Shown: piece by piece, positions 1 through 11,071 of the stretch
How the letters are laid out: every line of letters begins with the position of its first letter
Numbering within the stretch: the stretch's first letter is position 1
Origin: Deltaproteobacteria bacterium
GTDB taxonomy: Bacteria; Desulfobacterota; DSM-4660; Desulfatiglandales; B25-G16
DNA length: 40,224 bases
Direction: 5' to 3'
NCBI GenBank assembly: GCA_020349945.1
Contig: CP070704.1
Coordinates: 2,173,690 to 2,213,913 of the forward strand
The notes under the pieces: model-generated
What the model saw: the letters and a program-made list of their open reading frames with translations, nothing else
What the model was told of the DNA's origin: nothing
The model's database searches: none
Made by a program: the position numbers and the translations under genes

Positions 1-371
1 TTGCCGACCGTTATCTGGATGAGCTCTCCGGCGGGCAGCAGCAGCGGGTGGGTGTAGCCCGGGCCCTGGCAGCAGATCCCGATTATCTCCTCATGGATGA
101 ACCCTTTGGTGCATTAGATGCCCTGACGCGCGATACCCTCCAGCATGAGTTGTTATCCCTGAAGGAACGTCTGAAAAAGACAATTATTTTTGTTACTCAT
201 GACATCTTTGAGGCGATCACCTTGGGCGACCGGATAGCTATTCTCCACAAGGGGAAACTCGAGCAGGTAGGCAGCAAGGAGGAGGTTTTGAACTGCCCGG
301 AAAGCGAGTTTGTCATTGAGTTATTTTCTAAGCCCGCTAAACAACTGGCTGCATTCAAGGACATGATCTGA
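1..371 (+). CDS. ABC transporter ATP-binding protein, C-terminal part (betaine/choline type)
   Basis: This is the C-terminal third of an ABC ATPase cut by the left edge; the frame is open from base 3, so no start codon is visible. The signature LSGGQQQRVGVARALA is read from base 24, followed by the Walker B and D-loop stretch LLMDEPFGALD and the H-loop FVTHD. The protein would energise import by the membrane protein encoded next. Its stop overlaps the next start by one base (TGATG), so the two are translationally coupled. Assignment to the glycine betaine/carnitine/choline (OpuC/OsmV-like) group rests on that neighbour. The short tail after the H-loop suggests there is no full CBS pair, unlike many OpuCA proteins. 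Confidence 0.93.
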   Translation, partial: ADRYLDELSGGQQQRVGVARALAADPDYLLMDEPFGALDALTRDTLQHELLSLKERLKKTIIFVTHDIFEAITLGDRIAILHKGKLEQVGSKEEVLNCPESEFVIELFSKPAKQLAAFKDMI

Positions 372-1984
372 TGGCTGCTGAAGCTTTTATCGATTTTGTA
401 TTGTATAGGTTACCGCAACTGTGGCTCCGGACGGGCGAGCACCTGGTGCTAACCGGTGTTTCTACCGGCGCAGCCATAATATTAGGCGTTCCAATAGGCA
501 TTTTGGCCTCTCGGTTTGCGCAGCTGCGTGGCCCTCTGCTGGGAACGATAGGAATCCTGCAGACGATCCCGAGCCTCGCAATGTTGGCCATCCTCCTGGC
601 ACTCACTGGAAAGATTGGGGCCCTGCCCGCCATTATCGCCCTGGCATTGTATGCCCTACTTCCTATTGTGAGAAATACGCTTACGGGTATTCAAGGGGTC
701 TCTCCCGCAGCACTGGAGGCTGCCCGCGGCATAGGTATGACAGACCGTCAACAGCTATGGAAGGTCAAGATCCCCCTGGCCCTACCAGTTATCGTGGCCG
801 GCATCAGGACCGCCGCAGTCACAGGGGTGGGCATTGCGACCCTGTCGGCGTTTATCGGTGCGGGAGGGCTAGGGCAATTTATTAACCGGGGATTGGCCCT
901 TTCCAACACTAACCTCATCCTTCTCGGAGCCATTCCTGCCGCCCTACTTGCTCTGGTTGTGGACCTCTCGATCGCAGCCATGGGGTGGGGCCTAGAACCC
1001 CGCAGGCACCGCCATTTACCTCAACGTCTGCGGATACTACTTCAAGGTTTAACGCTCTTGCTTCCTTTTTTCATAGGGGTTGCTGGAGTCATTGCCTACA
1101 TCTCTGGAGCCGCAATGAGGCCTGTATCTAGCCCCACCTCAACAATAGCGGGCCAGGGCCGTGCAGCAAACGTGGTAATCGCATCGAAGAACTTTACCGA
1201 GCAACTCATCTTGGGTGAATTAATGGTTCAACTTATCGGGGAACGGACAGAGCTGACCGTCGAGCGGCGCTTTAACCTCGGGGGTACAATGATCTGTCAC
1301 GGCGCCATTGTGAACGGAGAAATCGACATCTATGCCGAGTATACGGGAACTGGGCTGACCACGATCTTAAGGCGGGAGGTTGTTTCTGATCCCGACGAGG
1401 TGTTCGATCTAGTAGCGCGGGAGTACCGAAATCGCTTCGACATAGAGTGGCTCCAGTCCTTTGGTTTTAATAACACCTATGCCATTACGGTAAGGGAAAG
1501 GGATGCCCAAATGCACGGATGGGGGAAGATCTCTGATCTCAAGGCATCCGCTCCAAATCTGCGGGCTGGTTTCACCTCCGAATTCATGGAACGACCTGAC
1601 GGGTACCCTGGTCTCCGAAAGGCATACGGGTTGAGTTTTGGCGAAGTTAGGGATCTTGATCCCGCGCTGATGTACGAGGCACTCGCCAAGGAGGAGGTAG
1701 ATGTTATTTGTGCGTTTGCTACGGACGGCCGTATTGCTGCTTATAAGCTAAAACTGCTCTTGGATAACCGAGATTTTTTCCCGCCTTACCAGGCTGCACC
1801 CATTGTGCGAAAAGAAGTCCTCAAATCTCATCCTGAAATTAGACAAGCGCTGGCTCCGCTTTCAGGGCTTCTTAATGATGCCACCATGCAAGGATTGAAC
1901 TATAAGGTAGATGGCAAAAAACGCTCACCCCGAGACGTTGCCCGTGAGTTCCTGAAATCCCATAACCTGTTAAATGAGGATTAA
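371..1984 (+). CDS. Fused permease and substrate-binding protein of a glycine betaine/choline-type ABC importer
   Basis: The protein has 537 residues. Residues 1-205 are a binding-protein-dependent permease with several hydrophobic spans and a typical EAA loop (ALEAARGIGMTDRQQLWKVKIPLALP, near 114-139; written here as family motif EAA...G). A further membrane span lies at about 223-247. Residues 268-535 form an OpuAC/OsmX-type binding domain: it opens with VIASKNFTEQLILGE and contains YAEYTGTGL. The binding domain is therefore tethered to the outer face of the membrane rather than free. Such permease-binding protein fusions are known in OpuC/ProWX-like systems. The substrate is probably a quaternary amine; the family also takes choline, carnitine and proline betaine, and sequence alone does not decide. 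The convergent methyltransferase cluster supports a methylated amine. Confidence 0.92.
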   Translation: MAAEAFIDFVLYRLPQLWLRTGEHLVLTGVSTGAAIILGVPIGILASRFAQLRGPLLGTIGILQTIPSLAMLAILLALTGKIGALPAIIALALYALLPIVRNTLTGIQGVSPAALEAARGIGMTDRQQLWKVKIPLALPVIVAGIRTAAVTGVGIATLSAFIGAGGLGQFINRGLALSNTNLILLGAIPAALLALVVDLSIAAMGWGLEPRRHRHLPQRLRILLQGLTLLLPFFIGVAGVIAYISGAAMRPVSSPTSTIAGQGRAANVVIASKNFTEQLILGELMVQLIGERTELTVERRFNLGGTMICHGAIVNGEIDIYAEYTGTGLTTILRREVVSDPDEVFDLVAREYRNRFDIEWLQSFGFNNTYAITVRERDAQMHGWGKISDLKASAPNLRAGFTSEFMERPDGYPGLRKAYGLSFGEVRDLDPALMYEALAKEEVDVICAFATDGRIAAYKLKLLLDNRDFFPPYQAAPIVRKEVLKSHPEIRQALAPLSGLLNDATMQGLNYKVDGKKRSPRDVAREFLKSHNLLNED

Positions 1985-2130: not shown

Positions 2131-3651
2131 CTAAAGGCAGATCCATTGGCCAACAGTCTCCACAGCACGGTGACTCCCAAAATGCTCGGTGAAGATGCGG
2201 AAGTAGTAAAGTTCTTCCTTGCTCCGAATTATTGGGTACTCGTCTTGAGCCTGGGCCAGCTCGCCATCGGTGATTATATCTTCAACGTAGGCTGGAAGTA
2301 GCCTCGCGGAACCGGACCCCTGCGAGAACTCCTCCTTGAGGCGCCAGGCCACACTTCTGGGCAGGAGGGACTCAAATGCCTTTCTGAAGATCCACTTTTC
2401 GATCTTCTGATCACCTTCTGGTTTCTGTTTGTATTCGGATGGGATGGCCAATGAATAATTCAGTAGTTCCCCGGATATGAGAGGCGCCACTACCCGAACA
2501 CCATGGCACTGGTTCATGCGATCCAGCCGTAGAGCGGCGTTGTTATGCAATAACCCGAGACATTCCCTCTGCCGCATAAATAGTTCTTCAGGTAGAAAAT
2601 TCTTAAGGTACGTGTACCCGCAGAATATCTCATCACCCCCCTCACCGGAGAGCAGTACCTGGACTCCGTGCTCCTTGGCATATTGAGAGATGAGGAAGTT
2701 CGACACTGCACTCCTGACTAGGGGAGGATCGAAGGATTCCAGATAATAGATAACCTCAGGTAAGACCTTCAAGATCTGCTCGAGTTCCACTGTCAGTTCC
2801 CGGTGGTCTGTGTTAAGATAGGTGGCCATGGCCCGAGCGTTTTGAATGTCACTGCTTTCCCCCACTCCTAAGGCAAAGGTCTTCAATTTGGCGTCTCCTC
2901 CGAACTTCTCTTTGCATGCCTCGCCAGCCAAATACGTGATTACGCTGCTATCGAGCCCCCCACTGAGGAGGCTGCCTGTTGGGATACGGAAGTCTACCCG
3001 ATTTCGTACACTTCGCCGGACCATGGAGGAGATGTCCTTCACCATTCGATCCACATTCGAATGGAGCTCTGTAGGCGGGGCCTTGGGCAATTCCGAAAAC
3101 CGGGTCAACCTCCCGCGCCTGTCCATAAAATAGCCTGCAGGGAATTCATGGACATCCTCGGTGACTTCGAGAATGCTTTTGAGTTCAGAGGCGAGGTATA
3201 GGGTCTGGCCCTTCCACCCATAATAGAGGGTCTTGATACCCAGGAGGTCTCTGGCCGCAAAGAGTTCATCCCCATCACACAGTGCAAAGGCAAAAATCGC
3301 GTCATTTAGATACCGGAACAAACCCGTGCCGGCACGTAGATAGAGATGAAGGAGCAGCCGTTCCTCCTTGAAAGGGCCGTGTGAGATCCCATGCATTTCT
3401 CCCAGTTCGTTCCGATTCCCGATCTGGCCGTCATAGCAGATCCTGAGATTGGCGTCTAACGGGCTTGACACGGGAAGCTCTATCCTTCCGTTTGTCGGAA
3501 CGTCGTCTGCCTGGAGGTAGTTTTGGGCAAAGATCATGCGGTCAGTCTTGCAGATGCCCGCGACAAAAGGACCACGATGCCTGATCTTATTGAACGCAGC
3601 CTCCACTTCGCTACGATCTGGCTTTCCATATGCGACTACAAATCCAGCCAT
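2131..3651 (-). CDS. Asparagine-synthetase-like protein with inactive glutaminase domain
   Basis: This 506-residue AsnB-fold protein has an N-terminal class II amidotransferase domain (about 1-190) and a C-terminal ATP-dependent synthetase domain with PP-loop SGGLDSS at 230-236, then LLSGEGGDEIFCGY and a KEEFSQGSG stretch resembling the KEQFSDGVG of true AsnB. The protein begins MAGF where active enzymes have MCGI/MCSI, so the catalytic Cys is Ala. The glutamine-binding NGE motif reads DGQ (near 74-76). Glutamine hydrolysis is therefore unlikely, and free ammonia or another amine would be the nitrogen donor. Beta-lactam synthetase is a known AsnB relative without this Cys. The gene follows the SAM methyltransferase by 20 bases and closes the minus-strand run. 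Its substrate is unknown. Confidence 0.85.
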   Translation of the reverse strand: MAGFVVAYGKPDRSEVEAAFNKIRHRGPFVAGICKTDRMIFAQNYLQADDVPTNGRIELPVSSPLDANLRICYDGQIGNRNELGEMHGISHGPFKEERLLLHLYLRAGTGLFRYLNDAIFAFALCDGDELFAARDLLGIKTLYYGWKGQTLYLASELKSILEVTEDVHEFPAGYFMDRRGRLTRFSELPKAPPTELHSNVDRMVKDISSMVRRSVRNRVDFRIPTGSLLSGGLDSSVITYLAGEACKEKFGGDAKLKTFALGVGESSDIQNARAMATYLNTDHRELTVELEQILKVLPEVIYYLESFDPPLVRSAVSNFLISQYAKEHGVQVLLSGEGGDEIFCGYTYLKNFLPEELFMRQRECLGLLHNNAALRLDRMNQCHGVRVVAPLISGELLNYSLAIPSEYKQKPEGDQKIEKWIFRKAFESLLPRSVAWRLKEEFSQGSGSARLLPAYVEDIITDGELAQAQDEYPIIRSKEELYYFRIFTEHFGSHRAVETVGQWICL

Positions 3652-3671: not shown

Positions 3672-4934
3672 CTACTTTCGAATCTCAAAAACCCCGACCA
3701 GGCTGTGGCCTACTCCCGTGCCAGGCTGGAGGGTCATCTCCAGCCTCCGAAGCGAATAGCCCAGATGTGGTTCAATGAAATTGGCGCGGACGTCACCCCA
3801 TTTGACCCATCCCACGCCCTCAATCACCTTTCGCATGATGTGCATGGCTTCCTTGAGAGGATCCGGATAAAATGGTTGAACCTGTGGGTCCGTACGCAGT
3901 TTTGCCGCTTCGGAGTCGTACTCGCTGAGTAAGGAGATAGTATAATTGACCAGGGCATTGCAGGACATGAAGAACATTTCGAAGAAGTTGTTAAGGTGAT
4001 CAAAGCCCGGCCGCGGCACGTGGTCTATCAGAAGGCGCTCAAGATCAGTGCGCAGGTAACTCTCAAAAAGGGAGTTTACTGCCAGGCGTAGATTCGGGCA
4101 GTTTTTATTGTACTCACCGGTCTCCATGTGCCTGCCGATCAAGATGGAGCGGTCAAAAATGGTAATGGGCTTGATCTCCGCTCCAGATTCCTTTGACGCC
4201 TGGTCCATGATCTTCATCATTTCATCTCTGGTCATGAGCCTCAAAGGAAATGACGAGACATCTACCTGACCTCGCTCATGCTCCGGATAAATATAGGAAA
4301 TGCGATAGTCCATGAAGTATTCCTGATCTGCCGGGTGATGCCATAGATCCTGCCACTCATAGGAGTATCGGCCGAGCCAGTCTCCTACCATGAGTGCCCG
4401 CTCTGGTGCATGTGTGCAAAGGTCAGCAATAATCTTTACGACCTGGTCGTCGTGAAAGTGGGAGAATGTGCCATAAGAGGTGAAATAGATATCAAAGGGC
4501 TCCTCTTTTTTCACTGAAGCAGGCAGACCCCTAGACACATCATCATGTATGAATCGAACTTTCTGATTGGCGCTGTGATAGGCCTCCGCCTGTTTCAGCA
4601 AATCCTCGTTGATGTCCAGCCCCACGTATTCCCTGAGCATATCAGATGTGATGGCAGCTATGATGTACTCGTATATGTCAGGATCCTTGGTTGTAACCCC
4701 CATCAAAAGGTCATAGCCATCACCGCTTCCACAGCCCAGATCCAAGATACGGACGCGCTTAAGTAGCCTTCTTTTCTCATCCATCAAATCGGTTAGGGCA
4801 GGACGGAGAAAAATTCCTGTTAGCTGATCTTCCCATAGTCTTCTCACGTTATCGTATTTTCCCAAGAGCCCAGTGGCCCTATCATATTTTCCCGTATAAG
4901 CTGCCTGTGAATAGGCCTTTTTTTCCGCCATCAT
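3672..4934 (-). CDS. SAM-dependent methyltransferase (class I) with C-terminal extension
   Basis: The protein has 420 residues. Motif I, RILDLGCGSGDGYDLL, lies near residues 62-77, and an acidic post-I motif reads YVGLDINEDLL, so the first about 230 residues are a Rossmann-fold SAM methyltransferase. The remaining 190 residues, rich in aromatic residues (GFDHLNNFFEMFFM), match no domain I can name. It lies 52 bases after the corrinoid-protein gene and 20 bases before the AsnB-like gene, which suggests co-transcription and a joint role with the latter. The substrate could be a small molecule such as an amino acid. Nothing in the sequence identifies it. Confidence 0.85.
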   Translation of the reverse strand: MMAEKKAYSQAAYTGKYDRATGLLGKYDNVRRLWEDQLTGIFLRPALTDLMDEKRRLLKRVRILDLGCGSGDGYDLLMGVTTKDPDIYEYIIAAITSDMLREYVGLDINEDLLKQAEAYHSANQKVRFIHDDVSRGLPASVKKEEPFDIYFTSYGTFSHFHDDQVVKIIADLCTHAPERALMVGDWLGRYSYEWQDLWHHPADQEYFMDYRISYIYPEHERGQVDVSSFPLRLMTRDEMMKIMDQASKESGAEIKPITIFDRSILIGRHMETGEYNKNCPNLRLAVNSLFESYLRTDLERLLIDHVPRPGFDHLNNFFEMFFMSCNALVNYTISLLSEYDSEAAKLRTDPQVQPFYPDPLKEAMHIMRKVIEGVGWVKWGDVRANFIEPHLGYSLRRLEMTLQPGTGVGHSLVGVFEIRK

Positions 4935-4986: not shown

Positions 4987-5673
4987 TCAACCGGAAGACA
5001 TATTCTTCAATACATCGATGGCCTGGAAGGCATCTTTGCAATAGGCATCGGCCCCAATCTGTTTGGCAAACCCTTCAGATGTAGGCGCACCACCGACAAG
5101 GACCTTTATGTCCTCTCGAAGCCCCGCCTTCTGGAGTTCCTCGATAACCTCTCCCATGACCCGCATGGTAGTGGTCAGAAGGGCTGAGAGCCCCAAGAAG
5201 GAGGCCTGGTACTCACTGACAGCTTTGACAATCCGCTCAGTTGGCACATCAGCCCCCAAGTCAATGACCTCATAGCCAGCACCTTTCAGCATGATAGATA
5301 CAATGTTCTTGCCGATGTCGTGAAGGTCTCCAGCCACGGTTGCGATAACGAACTTGCCCCTGCTTTCCACGCCGGCCTTTGTCAGATGGGGACTCAGGAT
5401 GTCCATAGCGGCGCCGACACACTCTGCCGAAGCAAGCATATCAGGGATGAGATATTCTTCCCGCTGGAATTTTCCTCCCACCACTTCCATCCCCTTGGAA
5501 AGGCCTTCTATGACGATAGGCCTGGGGTCCAGGCCTCGCTCAAGCGCTTCCCTCAAGAGTTCAGTAACAGCCGGTTGCCCATCTAAACCCTCGTCGAAAC
5601 CCTCATCTTCAGCCTCGATCCTGCCCTGCACCACATTGAATGCAATCTTCTCTATGAGCTCTTGCTCGTGCAT
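4987..5673 (-). CDS. Corrinoid (B12-binding) methyl-carrier protein, MtbC/MttC/MtgC-like
   Basis: The protein has 228 residues and the standard two-domain layout: a helical cap (about 1-100) and a Rossmann B12-binding domain. The cobalt-ligating His lies in DLHDIGK (residues 116-122). SALLTTTM and the VGGAPTSEGFAKQIGADAY tail motif complete the cobalamin site. It carries the methyl group between an MttB-type enzyme and the methyltetrahydrofolate enzyme encoded upstream. The start ATG lies inside the 3' end of the preceding mttB-like gene (22-base overlap) behind a GGGAG ribosome site, so synthesis is probably coupled. Only one corrinoid protein is present for two MttB-like enzymes. The N-terminal segment has an acidic insert (EDEGFDEGLDG, 22-32). 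Confidence 0.95.
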   Translation of the reverse strand: MHEQELIEKIAFNVVQGRIEAEDEGFDEGLDGQPAVTELLREALERGLDPRPIVIEGLSKGMEVVGGKFQREEYLIPDMLASAECVGAAMDILSPHLTKAGVESRGKFVIATVAGDLHDIGKNIVSIMLKGAGYEVIDLGADVPTERIVKAVSEYQASFLGLSALLTTTMRVMGEVIEELQKAGLREDIKVLVGGAPTSEGFAKQIGADAYCKDAFQAIDVLKNMSSG

Positions 5674-7268
5674 AGCTTGCTCCCCGCTCTCAAATCGTTA
5701 TAACGAATTTCTTCTCCCTCGGTAGCCTCCCTGAGTCCTGGCAACAGTCCCGGGATCTCATCAAAAATGCGATCCACAATTACTTGATCCAGATGCGGTG
5801 GCCTCTCGCTCTCTAATCGGTTCATATGATCCAGCGCCTTCTCTAAAACCCTGTCTTCTAAACCCTTGGCCTCAAACCTATACGGACTGGAGACCTCTCC
5901 GGCACGCATGGCCTTTCGAATATGACGGGCGTAGAGCCGGTAACTGGAAGCCATGACCCTCTTCACTGTCACCAGCATCTCCTCCACCACAGAAGGGCCT
6001 ACTTTTGGCTCCCGCAGACACTGTTTGATCTTGCCGATCTGCTCATTGTCAAGCACCGCCTGGACCGGGCAGAAGCTGTTGGTCCGATCCAACAGGCCGA
6101 AGGCATAATGTATGTACTGAGCACCGCTCATGGCCATGTACAGATGCGTGAAGAGCTTCTCAAAAGTAGCCTGCATGCCCGGAACCTTTGCGTCACCCAC
6201 TCCTGCCGTTGAATAACAGGGAATCTTATAGAAACGGGCTAGCTGTACGCAGTCTATATTGTACTGGTTGAATTCAGGACACCCGTATAGGTCGTGAAGG
6301 TCATCCAATCGCGCTCTTACAGGCACGCTCCCATAAAGCACCGGCGCACCTTCTCTGATCAATTGCGTAAGGGTGATGCCGGCCAATATCTCTGCATTGA
6401 TCTGAGCCACCATACCCGCTTCTTGAATAGGGGCAGAGGAGCCACCCTGCGGGGATGAGGAAATAACCAAAGGCAGACCTGCTTCCACGATGGCGAACAC
6501 CTTCTCGGCCGTATCATCTACCATCTGAAGAGGGCTTTTGAAAACACAGGCTATGAAGGAGATAATCGGACTTCCTCTGAGGCCCTCAGGCCCTCCTGCG
6601 ATAAGTTCTGCCATTCGCACCACGTCGTTCAGATTCTCCAACTTGGTGAGTCCAGCCTGTACGTGCTTGGTTGTGTTATTCAGACTTGCAAAGAACTTGT
6701 TCACGTCGTGATTCTCAGGGGTGATCCCCGGGTCTTGTATGTTTAAAGGCCGGATAAAGAAATCCAGATGCTCCAATTTGTCGCACAGTCTGGCCGCACG
6801 GCTGAGTAGGCCTGTATTGCCCCGGAGTTCTGTAAAACGAGGAACTCTCACCGTAAGGCTGCCGTCATGAACACTGACAAAGTCGTCCATCTCCGTTTCA
6901 ATCCAAATATTGGCTTCGGACCCCGAGCCAAAGTAGACTCGGGGCACTTCTGCATCGAGCAGTAGCTGGTTTTCCCGCCTCCTCGCCCCAAGCACAAAGC
7001 GAGAGGGGGCCCGAGCTACCGCCTCCTTTATAAGGCCGGAGGGGAAACGTACACGCCAACACCCTGAATGCTTCTCCTTTTCTTCCCAAACCGTGGCCCC
7101 ATGAGCCTTGAAAAGGCTCGCTGCACGCTCGTTGTAACACCAGATACCCGGCTCGGCCAAAATGCGCAGTGATGCCTCATCGAGCCATTCCACCTGGTCC
7201 GGACTTAATCGTTCGTACGGTTTGACCACAACACCTTCCCTGAATGTCTCTGTCACCCGATCCTCCAT
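5652..7268 (-). CDS. MttB-family (non-pyrrolysine) corrinoid methyltransferase A
   Basis: The protein has 538 residues and belongs to the trimethylamine methyltransferase MttB family; family-typical segments include PLVISSSPQGGSSAP (267-280), PVLYGSVP (309-316) and STAGVGDAK (353-361). Its full length is read without an amber codon, so it lacks pyrrolysine like MtgB, MtpB and MtcB, which demethylate glycine betaine, proline betaine and carnitine. The predicted reaction is methyl transfer from a quaternary or tertiary amine to the corrinoid protein encoded immediately downstream. It is about 50 residues longer than the second copy, mainly at both ends. The gap to the methyltetrahydrofolate enzyme gene is 104 bases. 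The exact amine is not deducible. Confidence 0.92.
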   Translation of the reverse strand: MEDRVTETFREGVVVKPYERLSPDQVEWLDEASLRILAEPGIWCYNERAASLFKAHGATVWEEKEKHSGCWRVRFPSGLIKEAVARAPSRFVLGARRRENQLLLDAEVPRVYFGSGSEANIWIETEMDDFVSVHDGSLTVRVPRFTELRGNTGLLSRAARLCDKLEHLDFFIRPLNIQDPGITPENHDVNKFFASLNNTTKHVQAGLTKLENLNDVVRMAELIAGGPEGLRGSPIISFIACVFKSPLQMVDDTAEKVFAIVEAGLPLVISSSPQGGSSAPIQEAGMVAQINAEILAGITLTQLIREGAPVLYGSVPVRARLDDLHDLYGCPEFNQYNIDCVQLARFYKIPCYSTAGVGDAKVPGMQATFEKLFTHLYMAMSGAQYIHYAFGLLDRTNSFCPVQAVLDNEQIGKIKQCLREPKVGPSVVEEMLVTVKRVMASSYRLYARHIRKAMRAGEVSSPYRFEAKGLEDRVLEKALDHMNRLESERPPHLDQVIVDRIFDEIPGLLPGLREATEGEEIRYNDLRAGSKLCTSKSS

Positions 7269-7372: not shown

Positions 7373-8170
7373 CTAACCACCTCGAAAGGCGCGGATGTAG
7401 CCCCGACAATGCCGGTCCTTTCCCAACAGGACATAGGCTGTCTTCACCGCATCCATTAACTCCTTATCCAGCGGGTCCATGATGGTCGCATCGAGACCAG
7501 TGAAAATGGCCATCTGAAGGAAAGCCGTATTCAGCCTAGCCCGTGCAGGCAGGCCATATGAGATGTTGGAAAGCCCCACTATAGTCTTGGCCATGGGCAA
7601 TGTCTCCTTTACCTTCATCAAGGTGTAGAGCGTCACCAGTCCCTGGTTTACATCTGTACTGATGGGCAAAACCAGCGGATCAAAGAACACAGACTCGAGA
7701 AGAACCCCATACTTTTCACAGACCCTAGCTATGTTTTTGCAAGCCCTGATGCGGTCTTCCACGCTCGAGGGGACGCCTGTTTCATCCATGGAGAGTGCTA
7801 CCAAAGGGACATTATAGCTCTTTGCAAGGGGCACTACTTTTTCTAGGCTACTTTTCTCGGCTTTCGTTGAGTTGATGAGAGTGGGCCTTCCGTTGCGTGC
7901 ATCGAGAGCTGCCTCCAGAACCGCTGGATCCGCGCTGTCGATGCAAAGGGCTGTGTCTACTTCCCGTTGAATCGTCTGAACTGCCCATTGCATTGCCCTG
8001 ATCTCATCCTCCTGGGATCCCACTCCAGTTCCCACATTTATATCGATATAATCAGCGCCTGCGGTAGCCTGTCTCTTCGTTAATTCCAGCAGTGCTTCCT
8101 TATCTCTTTGCCTTATTATGACCCTGACTTTCGGGATGGTTGCATTTATCTTTTCTCCAATAATGATCAT
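7373..8170 (-). CDS. Methyltetrahydrofolate:corrinoid methyltransferase (MtgA/AcsE-like)
   Basis: This 265-residue pterin-binding TIM-barrel protein has the family landmarks DYIDINVG (40-47), CIDSADP (76-82), NSTKAEK (100-106), FDPLVLP (163-169) and GLSNISYGLP (199-208). It should move the methyl group from the methylated corrinoid protein to tetrahydrofolate (or the reverse), joining amine demethylation to the folate branch of one-carbon metabolism. A dihydropteroate synthase is unlikely because the NSTKAEK and GLSNISYGLP segments are typical of the methyltransferases. It sits 17 bases after the second mttB-like gene behind a GGAGGGG ribosome site. MtgA of the glycine betaine system of Desulfitobacterium is a functional precedent for this gene arrangement. 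Confidence 0.92.
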   Translation of the reverse strand: MIIIGEKINATIPKVRVIIRQRDKEALLELTKRQATAGADYIDINVGTGVGSQEDEIRAMQWAVQTIQREVDTALCIDSADPAVLEAALDARNGRPTLINSTKAEKSSLEKVVPLAKSYNVPLVALSMDETGVPSSVEDRIRACKNIARVCEKYGVLLESVFFDPLVLPISTDVNQGLVTLYTLMKVKETLPMAKTIVGLSNISYGLPARARLNTAFLQMAIFTGLDATIMDPLDKELMDAVKTAYVLLGKDRHCRGYIRAFRGG

Positions 8171-8187: not shown

Positions 8188-9651
8188 TCACTCCATGATG
8201 AAGGATCTTAGCCCCGGTATCTCACTCTTTATCCGTTCCCTGATCTCCCGCGGAATGTAGGGCTGGGGTTCACTTTCGAGAATTTCCCGTGCCTTTTCAG
8301 TGGCACGCGTTCTAGCATCCTTTCCACCGGCAGCATACCATTTGGCCCGGTCCTCCCGGTCACTCAAATGTGGATGGTATTGTTCAGAGCGCATGTGGCG
8401 GCGTGTGTGGCGTGTAGAGACAAAATTCCCGCCTGGCCCCGTCTCCTTGAGTAATTCAAAGGCGAGAGTCTCATCATTTACCCGGATACCCTTAACAGCG
8501 CGCATGACCATGCCTATAATTTCATTATCGATTACCAGCTTGTCATAAGAGGCGGTCATACAGAACTCCAGAAATCCAGCGGCATCATGGACGAGATTCC
8601 CTCCGGCCAGTGCAACCATTACATTCGTGATAGCAGATTCATATCCAGCCTGAGCATCATTGACCTTGGAGTCGGACATACCGGCTGTGGAATAGAGCGG
8701 AAGATTGTAGAATTGGGCCATCTGAGCTGAGGCAGCGTTCATCAGTCCCATCTCCACCGCACCTGAAAGATATTTCATGTCGCGGAGATCAGAGATGGAT
8801 GAGATACATCCGTATAGTACCGGAGTGCCAGGGCTAACGAGCTGTGTAAGCATAACTCCAGTTAGCGTATCAACGTTCTGCACAACGAGATTACCCGCTA
8901 GGGTGACAGGAGCTGTGGCGCCACAGAGGGGCTCTGCTGGTACAACGACGGGAATTCGATGCCGTGCAACCTCCATGGCAAGCTGACTGTAGCTTTCATC
9001 CAGTTTGAATGGGCTGATACTGCACGTAACCATAGAGATGAAAGGACGCTCCCTCAACTTATCCGGCGATCCCGCTATAATTTCCGCCATTTTGATGACA
9101 TTTCTTACCCCTTCTATGGTGTAGACCCCACCCATTACATGCTTCCGAGTCCGGTTGAGGGCTGCACCGAAGCGATTTACATCCACATCTTCCGCGGGAA
9201 GTTCATTAGGGTACACATTGAGCATATAAAAATGGATATTATCCAAGGCATCTACGAGGCGAGCCATGTTCATAACATCTGCAAGCTGTGCGCGTCGGGA
9301 ATCCTGGCTCCCTGGATCCTGGACATTCAAGGCAGTGCCCCCTGTTCCCATATAAACCGCCTTTCCCCCAATCTTGCAATCAAGGTCCCCGCTTTCAGGC
9401 CGACCACAGAGGTTGACCACAGAAGGCGCCTTGTTAACCAAGTGCTCGACTAGATCACGGTTGATCTTGACTACTCTGCTGACCTCATCTACCTCTGCAC
9501 TCGCATCGCGAAAGAGCTTCCTGGCTTCGGGGAGGTTCACTTCCACTCCCACCTCAGCAAGCACTTTTAGGCTCGCCAGGTGGATCTTTCGAACCTCCTC
9601 ATCGGTCAGAGGCCTATACCGGCCCCCGAGTAACCCCCTTCCTACAGTCAT
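8188..9651 (-). CDS. MttB-family (non-pyrrolysine) corrinoid methyltransferase B
   Basis: This is a second MttB-family protein, 487 residues from the chosen ATG. GAGG six to seven bases ahead of that ATG decides the start over a GTG two codons upstream. Family segments are PVVVPAEPLCGATAPV (near 234-249), PVLYGC (near 277) and STAGMSDSK (near 321). There is no in-frame amber codon. It differs strongly from copy A, so it is probably not a recent duplicate but an enzyme for another methylated amine, or a partner subunit. It presumably uses the single corrinoid protein of this cluster. The gene lies 64 bases after the reactivation-domain gene and 17 bases before the methyltetrahydrofolate methyltransferase gene. 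Confidence 0.92.
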   Translation of the reverse strand: MTVGRGLLGGRYRPLTDEEVRKIHLASLKVLAEVGVEVNLPEARKLFRDASAEVDEVSRVVKINRDLVEHLVNKAPSVVNLCGRPESGDLDCKIGGKAVYMGTGGTALNVQDPGSQDSRRAQLADVMNMARLVDALDNIHFYMLNVYPNELPAEDVDVNRFGAALNRTRKHVMGGVYTIEGVRNVIKMAEIIAGSPDKLRERPFISMVTCSISPFKLDESYSQLAMEVARHRIPVVVPAEPLCGATAPVTLAGNLVVQNVDTLTGVMLTQLVSPGTPVLYGCISSISDLRDMKYLSGAVEMGLMNAASAQMAQFYNLPLYSTAGMSDSKVNDAQAGYESAITNVMVALAGGNLVHDAAGFLEFCMTASYDKLVIDNEIIGMVMRAVKGIRVNDETLAFELLKETGPGGNFVSTRHTRRHMRSEQYHPHLSDREDRAKWYAAGGKDARTRATEKAREILESEPQPYIPREIRERIKSEIPGLRSFIME

Positions 9652-9715
9652 CTTCACACCTCAGGCCGATTAGCACAAAATACAAGGCAATTTACCACTA
9701 AGTATCGCAAACCCC

Positions 9716-10396
9716 CTACGCTCTCCTGGCCTCACAAATCCTCTTTGGACACTCCAGACAGGGGTTGAAAGGTTTCGTTCCTATATCGCTATATACACCA
9801 AAAACACCCGAGACCGACTTGCGCGGCATCATGAGACAGGAGTCGAGTAACTCAATGCCAGTCGCAGGTGAGTCAAACAATTTGAAAAGTGCCTTCTGTT
9901 CTGTAATTGGCCAATCGCAGTAGCCTGGGCTGAACCGGTAGGTTACCCCCTTACCTTCTGATTCATATTTGGTCATCATCCATTGATGAAACTTTTCGAC
10001 CATACCCTCTACTGCCACTGACCCCAGGGAATCCAAAATATAAGCATCTGAGAGACGATTTTGGCCCATAAGCCGCGCGATTTCCCTTTCAATACCACTG
10101 CCAATAGTTGCTACAAAACATATGATCTTCTCGCAATCCTTCATCGCCTTGGAAAGGTTTTGGCCTTTAAGGGCCTCGCTTCCCCCGAGATTAATCACCT
10201 CCCTATTGATTGACTCGATCCTCTTAGTTTCATAGTGCAGGTGAGGGACCATAAGTTGCTCTAACCTGGTTCCGAGCTCCTTTACTTTCAGGGCAACGGA
10301 TCCAGAGATTACATGAGATCTTCTCGCGCCTAAAAGCCTCGCCAGAGTTGAGTTCTCGAGACTCGGTTTGATTGCCGCGATAGACATATTGGTCAT
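9716..10396 (-). CDS. Stand-alone B12-dependent methionine synthase activation-domain protein
   Basis: The protein has 226 residues and carries the MetH activation-domain signature RFSPGYCDWP (154-163), followed by the MMPRKSVSGVFG loop that contacts SAM in MetH. It ends with a cysteine cluster CLECPKRIC (C213, C216, C221) that could hold a metal or Fe-S centre; similar tails occur in stand-alone members such as Thermotoga TM0269. In MetH this domain binds SAM and helps reduce and re-methylate inactive cob(II)alamin. Being first in the methyltransferase run, it probably reactivates the corrinoid protein here, a task usually given to RamA-type ATP-dependent proteins, none of which is visible. 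Helping an unlinked core MetH is the alternative. No strong ribosome site is seen. Confidence 0.85.
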   Translation of the reverse strand: MTNMSIAAIKPSLENSTLARLLGARRSHVISGSVALKVKELGTRLEQLMVPHLHYETKRIESINREVINLGGSEALKGQNLSKAMKDCEKIICFVATIGSGIEREIARLMGQNRLSDAYILDSLGSVAVEGMVEKFHQWMMTKYESEGKGVTYRFSPGYCDWPITEQKALFKLFDSPATGIELLDSCLMMPRKSVSGVFGVYSDIGTKPFNPCLECPKRICEARRA

Positions 10397-10582: not shown

Positions 10583-11071
10583 CTATTCGACCTCTAGATC
10601 TTGGACGTCTAACATCTGAGTGAGCATATTGAGTCCGTCCACGATCTTCCCTATTTCCTTCTGAGGAAGCCTTTTGAGACCGTCTACAATCTTCCGTTGG
10701 ATGGGAGGAGGTGCGTGTTCAGCGAGCGCATTGCCTGCCTCTGTCAACTCGATGGTAATCATCCGACGATCAGGACAGTTCCTCACCCGCCGAACAAGCT
10801 TCTTCTGCTCCAGACGATCGATAATGCCAGTAACCGTGCTGGATTTGACCATGACATGCTTCGCAATCTGGGAAAGGCTAAGGGGGCCATTCTCATAGAG
10901 TGCAAGGAGGCAGTTAAGTTGGGGCGCGCTCACTTGATATTTTTTGTTCAGCTCCTTGGTGTACAGCTCTCCGGCCTGCATGAGCCTGCGGATCAGATAG
11001 ATGATCTCCCTGATACGATCCTGCGGGGCCTCCGAAGCCACCCCTTGAGGGTGCATGTAGTCGTTTAACAT
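10583..11071 (-). CDS. MarR-family transcriptional regulator
   Basis: The 162-residue winged-helix protein has a helix-turn-helix at about 66-88 (SLSQIAKHVMVKSSTVTGII) and a wing with the family DRR motif (NCPDRRMITIELT, about 98-110). It is the first gene of the minus-strand group, 186 bases upstream of the activation-domain gene, so it is the natural local regulator. A promoter and an overlapping palindrome just upstream suggest autorepression, and a similar palindrome precedes the methyltransferase run. The ligand could be a methylated amine or a product of its breakdown. That is inference; MarR proteins bind many small molecules. Confidence 0.93.
   Translation of the reverse strand: MLNDYMHPQGVASEAPQDRIREIIYLIRRLMQAGELYTKELNKKYQVSAPQLNCLLALYENGPLSLSQIAKHVMVKSSTVTGIIDRLEQKKLVRRVRNCPDRRMITIELTEAGNALAEHAPPPIQRKIVDGLKRLPQKEIGKIVDGLNMLTQMLDVQDLEVE

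Follow-up and report, generated by a model that had tools for sequence, protein, structure and literature searches.

The window, by which we mean the whole 40,224-nt stretch of DNA that was analysed, carries on its reverse strand an AsnB-like gene preceded by a series of methyltransferase and corrinoid protein genes (Table 1). Its product contains Asn_synthase and GATase_7 domains (Pfam), scored 200.5 bits against PF00733 (gathering score 21 bits), and has E. coli AsnB and human asparagine synthetase (ASNS) as its nearest solved sequences. The initial annotation had described an AsnB-type reading frame with a MAGF start, DGQ in place of NGE, and the motifs SGGLDSS and KEEFSQGSG, all of which were found in the translation. 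It had also allowed that an upstream start might give a Cys at position 2 of a longer protein. No such start is possible, as an in-frame stop codon lies four codons 5' of the ATG, and MSGF are the very first residues of several orthologue frames; the longer protein was therefore rejected. The stop codon of the upstream SAM methyltransferase gene is 20 nt away, and an AGGTGG-like ribosome site lies inside this gap.

Table 1. Features in and around the operon of the AsnB-like gene (positions in the window).
Feature	Position	Strand	Remarks
AsnB-like synthetase (group B), predicted glutaminase-dead	2131..3651	-	506 aa, starts MAGF
Class I SAM-dependent methyltransferase, unnamed family	3672..4934	-	420 aa; immediately upstream of the AsnB-like gene
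Corrinoid protein (B12-binding, MtgC/MtbC-like)	4987..5673	-	
Divergent MttB-family methyltransferase (MttB2)	5652..7268	-	538 aa
Pterin-binding methyltransferase (MeTr/MtgA-like)	7373..8170	-	methylcorrinoid:tetrahydrofolate
Non-pyrrolysine MttB-family methyltransferase (MttB1)	8188..9657	-	489 aa, GTG start
MetH-activation-like domain protein	9716..10396	-	presumed corrinoid reactivation
MarR-family regulator	10583..11071	-	conserved upstream of the operon
OpuA-type glycine-betaine ABC permease fused to binding protein	371..1984	+	convergent neighbour
Asparaginyl-tRNA synthetase (AsnRS) of the genome	17534-18925	+	~14 kb from the AsnB-like gene

The operon belongs to the corrinoid clusters of the quaternary-amine, non-pyrrolysine type. 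An Rfam PYLIS_3 match lies inside MttB1 (8580-8679, reverse strand), and because the Pyl position reads Met we took it as homology to mttB coding sequence and rejected pyrrolysine in this protein. Like MttB/MtgB operons for quaternary-amine demethylation, the cluster combines an MttB-family protein, a corrinoid protein, a methyltetrahydrofolate methyltransferase and a betaine ABC transporter; unlike them, it adds a second, divergent MttB, the unnamed SAM methyltransferase and the AsnB-like protein. The SAM methyltransferase, which is 48-75% identical across operons, has neither an NCBIfam name nor a close solved relative. Its predicted fold (pLDDT 69) gave generic class I matches only, and so reveals no substrate.

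Relatives and the former glutamine site

A scan of species genomes returned 14 loci, mostly from Desulfobacterales, at 59-75% identity, and a search found a family member in 28 of 395 genomes of the phylum. Within the family, the glutamine-blind group B has Ser or Ala as its first residue and 56-75% identity. L032 is a Ser-type intermediate at 40% identity, and the Cys-type members, at roughly 33-37%, make up groups A and A'. A quick tree united L032 and group B in one clade (99% SH-aLRT), while long branches (L048 and the outgroup) make its deeper order unsafe and the placement of L048 is not trusted. Two further genes have other domain contents. In one, a family member (L070:8987-10228, genome G158), some 100 N-terminal residues of the glutaminase domain are missing, with no clear coding remnant in the frames just upstream. 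The other (L162:979-1926, genome G370) codes for an Asn_synthase domain of 315 aa on its own, with no glutaminase domain, another glutamine-independent design, and adjoins what looks like a Dph6-type ATPase gene.

Residues were compared across 21 full-length group B rows, which represent 20 distinct genomes (L015 and L024 come from one genome). E. coli numbering follows what we take to be the AsnB reference sequence, with Cys as residue 1; its residues 26-514 can be matched to the 1ct9 alignment. The replacement of Cys1, first noted for the window protein, turned out to be a wider pattern: residue 1 is Ser in 20 rows and Ala in one, far more than chance would give. Ala is confined to the window protein, and every other full-length member has Ser.

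The changes extend well beyond residue 1. In human ASNS the glutamine network consists of Arg-48, Val-52, Asn-74, Gly-75, Glu-76 and Asp-96, and Glu-414, which is absolutely conserved and comes from the other domain, lies within 5 Å of it (PMC6748925). The six network positions read Y/D/D/G/Q/E in 21/21 group B rows, and Glu-414 (Glu398 in E. coli AsnB) is replaced in every row, by Arg in 20 and by Lys in one. In E. coli numbering, R49Y, N74D, E76Q and D98E show the same new letters in all rows, the oxyanion Asn74 thus being Asp throughout. The RVPFLD motif is recast as V-V-x-P-L-I-S, and two tunnel positions have changed (human Met-344 to Asn and Ala-404 to Leu). The window protein is accordingly without the N-terminal Cys, the glutamine pocket, and the interface Glu and RVPFLD motif of a glutamine-hydrolysing asparagine synthase (AsnB, EC 6.3.5.4). 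All 16 Cys-type members (13 in A and 3 in A') keep the canonical glutamine-site residues, A' having Met for Val-52. A literature search for work on an N74D AsnB found no usable paper.

The former pocket is also strongly conserved in its new form. Across nine columns, four of which were picked after the alignment had been viewed, mean pairwise identity in group B was 0.99, compared to 0.60 for the N-terminal domain (p < 5e-5; 0 of 20000 random draws). The five literature-defined pocket columns alone gave identities of 0.9, 1, 1, 1 and 1, and the C-terminal domain averaged 0.71. That the pocket columns are so much more conserved than the rest of their domain argues that the old glutamine site has been refitted and has not decayed by drift.

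The synthetase half and the predicted fold

The synthetase half retains its catalytic residues. The SGGxDS pyrophosphate loop and E348, D351, E352, R387 and K449 are kept in 21/21 group B rows, so that the residues expected of an AsnB (the loop with Glu348, Asp351 and Lys449) are invariant; in human numbering, Ser-362, Glu-364, Asp-367, Glu-368, Arg-403 and Lys-466 are retained. One position of the substrate pocket differs. Asp-400 of human ASNS is part of the amino-group pocket (PMC6748925), and the equivalent residue (Asp384 in E. coli) is Ala in group B, Gly in L032 and Asn in both A and A'. The substrate may therefore not be aspartate, a weak hint from these residues that the whole family (B, L032, A and A') could accept something other than plain aspartate.

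Profile models place the window protein at a distance from typical asparagine synthases. It scored below the cut-offs of both NF006949 (asparagine synthase B, NCBIfam; 365 against 499 bits) and TIGR01536 (241 against 267 bits). With the former model, A' reached 575 bits, above the cut-off, and the Ser-type intermediate 484 bits; judged by these scores, the departure from asparagine synthase B appears graded. The AlphaFold model of the window protein (pLDDT 89, 24 sequences) was ranked by Foldseek closest to E. coli AsnB and human ASNS (TM 0.84-0.88; 0.86/0.88 for 1ct9), followed by beta-lactam synthetase (0.71-0.78) and then by the TsnB9 hydroxyamidotransferase and carbapenam synthetase, the beta-lactam and carbapenam synthetases together spanning 0.67-0.78.

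The window protein thus resembles E. coli AsnB (1ct9) and human ASNS (6gq3) in its two-domain fold, SGGxDS loop and catalytic Glu348, Asp351, Arg387 and Lys449, and differs from them in lacking Cys1 and the glutamine pocket, in having Arg or Lys for the interface Glu, in the recast RVPFLD motif and in having Ala for Asp384. Cys-type A' proteins (for example L033 in G293) share its operon position, 35-36% identity and a non-acidic residue at human Asp-400, but they keep Cys1 and the whole glutamine site and pass the NCBIfam asparagine synthase B cut-off. From its residues, this AsnB-like enzyme of sediment bacteria appears to have lost every part needed to draw nitrogen from glutamine while keeping the ATP-driven ligase half. 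It offers a natural, multi-genome case in which pocket, interface Glu and tunnel positions shifted in concert before becoming fixed, and glutamine-type relatives in the same operon slot, even side by side, allow comparison. The family is therefore a good system for learning how an amidotransferase gives up glutamine.

Nitrogen source, substrate and the link to demethylation

What does the window protein do? Our preferred reading, to which we give a probability of roughly 0.55, is that it is an AsnB-fold, ATP-dependent, AMP-forming amide synthetase that would make no use of glutamine and would take its nitrogen from free ammonia or perhaps from a small amine. The nucleophile, oxyanion and glutamine-binding residues are lost, the interface has changed in concert, the adenylation residues are intact and the gene sits in an operon context. 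The initial annotation had proposed free ammonia or an amine as the nitrogen donor; the residue losses and the intact adenylation site on which that proposal depends are borne out, and from this combination we infer the nitrogen source itself. A carboxylate, perhaps aspartate-like or resembling an N-methylated amino acid, would be activated as an acyl-AMP in the C-terminal domain, with pyrophosphate release at the SGGLDSS loop. The nucleophile, free ammonia or perhaps a small amine, would then arrive directly at the synthetase site and attack the acyl-AMP, and the former glutaminase domain would serve as a refitted structural domain. Human ASNS can use free ammonia, and direct access to its synthetase site has been discussed (PMC11615228, PMC6748925). 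For some AsnB homologues, such as TsnB9 and FzmA, transfer of other N-nucleophiles is reported or proposed (PMC6133997). That G293 has a glutamine-type relative in this operon slot speaks for related chemistry. A role as sole asparagine source of the cell is disfavoured: G000 has three more AsnB-like proteins above the TIGR01536 cut-off, and group B genomes occur both with and without an AsnRS match (several are without). The gene may have a housekeeping role in asparagine supply, but none need be invoked to account for its presence.

Other readings deserve weighing against this glutamine-independent synthetase. Ser1 of most orthologues could in principle act as an Ntn nucleophile, Ser being the N-terminal nucleophile in other Ntn hydrolases. 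The N-terminal domain would then still be a hydrolase, acting on a different amide, as Ser1 in 20 of the 21 rows and the strictly conserved surrounding pocket might suggest. However, the window protein has Ala1 with the pocket otherwise unchanged, which makes catalysis by residue 1 unlikely even where it is Ser, and the Asp at the oxyanion position in every row also speaks against it; we consider such a hydrolase improbable. A little less improbable, though still unlikely, is a paralogue that has lost catalysis and acts as a regulator or scaffold, perhaps as partner of a Cys-type synthetase or of the SAM methyltransferase. Group B stands in tandem with A' in two genomes and usually adjoins the SAM methyltransferase gene where that gene exists. 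Most genomes with group B, however, have no A', several have no SAM methyltransferase, and no adenylation or catalytic residue varies in the synthetase half. Least probable is a lactam- or peptide-cyclising synthetase. The beta-lactam and carbapenam synthetases belong to the same superfamily, and they too have lost the glutaminase, have an AsnB-like fold and use acyl-AMP chemistry. The initial annotation had suggested a beta-lactam-synthetase-like role, which was not supported: fold and sequence are closer to AsnB (TM and identity to these synthetases being 0.67-0.78 and 17-21%), the lasso peptide and macrolactam cyclase models (NCBIfam) scored far under their cut-offs (119 against 525 and 42 against 300 bits), and neither a precursor peptide nor a biosynthetic cluster was noticed in the neighbourhood, which is a different genomic setting. 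The catalytic pair of beta-lactam synthetase, which we take to be Tyr348/Glu382, corresponds to AsnB 348/384 and reads Glu/Ala in all group B rows.

Use of a specific amine other than ammonia, such as a methylamine or amino compound from the demethylation operon, to give an N-substituted amide is a possibility we hold only tentatively. Two MttB homologues, a corrinoid protein and methyltransferases stand beside betaine transporters, and the tunnel-lining residues are now larger or polar (Leu for human Ala-404, Asn for Met-344), so that internal ammonia delivery has probably gone. In addition, group B lies beside a glutamine-type relative in G401 and G397, where a plain ammonia-dependent copy would be redundant, and this suggests a different product. 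Against a specific amine, the residues point to no particular one, and G108 (= G402), G039 and G164 keep the gene without a detectable MttB protein.

The operon itself recurs widely. The order MarR, Met_synt_B12-like, MttB1, MeTr, MttB2, corrinoid protein, SAM methyltransferase, AsnB-like is found in many loci, with the AsnB-like gene last in most genomes, often 11-28 nt from the SAM methyltransferase gene or overlapping it (up to 379 nt in some loci). Betaine-type ABC transporter genes lie beside the operon in the window and in L062, L064, L066, L069, L071 and L076. An AsnB-family member occurs in 11 of the 12 genomes with the SAM methyltransferase; in G189 the operon is without one. The slot holds B alone in most genomes, A' alone in G293, and A in G195 and G240. 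The last genes on contig C17 of G401 encode corrinoid protein, SAM methyltransferase and A', and contig C163 opens with the C-terminal end of A' and then B; from this we infer an A'/B tandem across the join. In G397, the A' remnant is a C-terminal fragment at a contig edge, adjoining B.

The proposed link to a methylamine cluster held in part: the gene does close a corrinoid cluster in most genomes, but B occurs with no detectable MttB in at least three genomes, all from a single genus. No MttB-family match was found in these B-carrying genomes, G108 (= G402), G039 and G164. Of them, G164 is 73% complete, and in G039 B is close to the end of a contig and its frame may be broken. Group B can therefore be useful without the demethylation operon, and the link is partial. 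It is conceivable, though speculative, that the whole AsnB-like family, Cys-type and glutamine-blind, represents a new step of anaerobic quaternary-amine metabolism. In this step a carboxylate, N-methylated or derived from betaine, would be amidated at the expense of ATP in a reaction coupled to the neighbouring SAM methyltransferase, and the blind branch would use free ammonia or an amine released by demethylation. If the operon link is functional, anaerobic betaine demethylation may include an amide-forming step, and the literature found by our searches mentions none. In the open-access literature, no report was found that combines asparagine synthetase and corrinoid with either MttB or glycine betaine, which is weak evidence of novelty.

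Further enzymes accompany some of the family AsnB genes. Within corrinoid clusters, nitrilase-superfamily carbon-nitrogen hydrolases occur at L064:11281-12384 and L065:14587-15543 (both by Pfam) and at L079:12258-13157 (by a similar N-terminus only), placing amide-forming beside amide-cleaving genes. DAO-type FAD oxidoreductases (sarcosine-oxidase-like) directly follow a Cys-type group A AsnB, near MttB-like genes, at L069:10172-11578 (by Pfam) and L076:10362-11729 (by a similar N-terminus).
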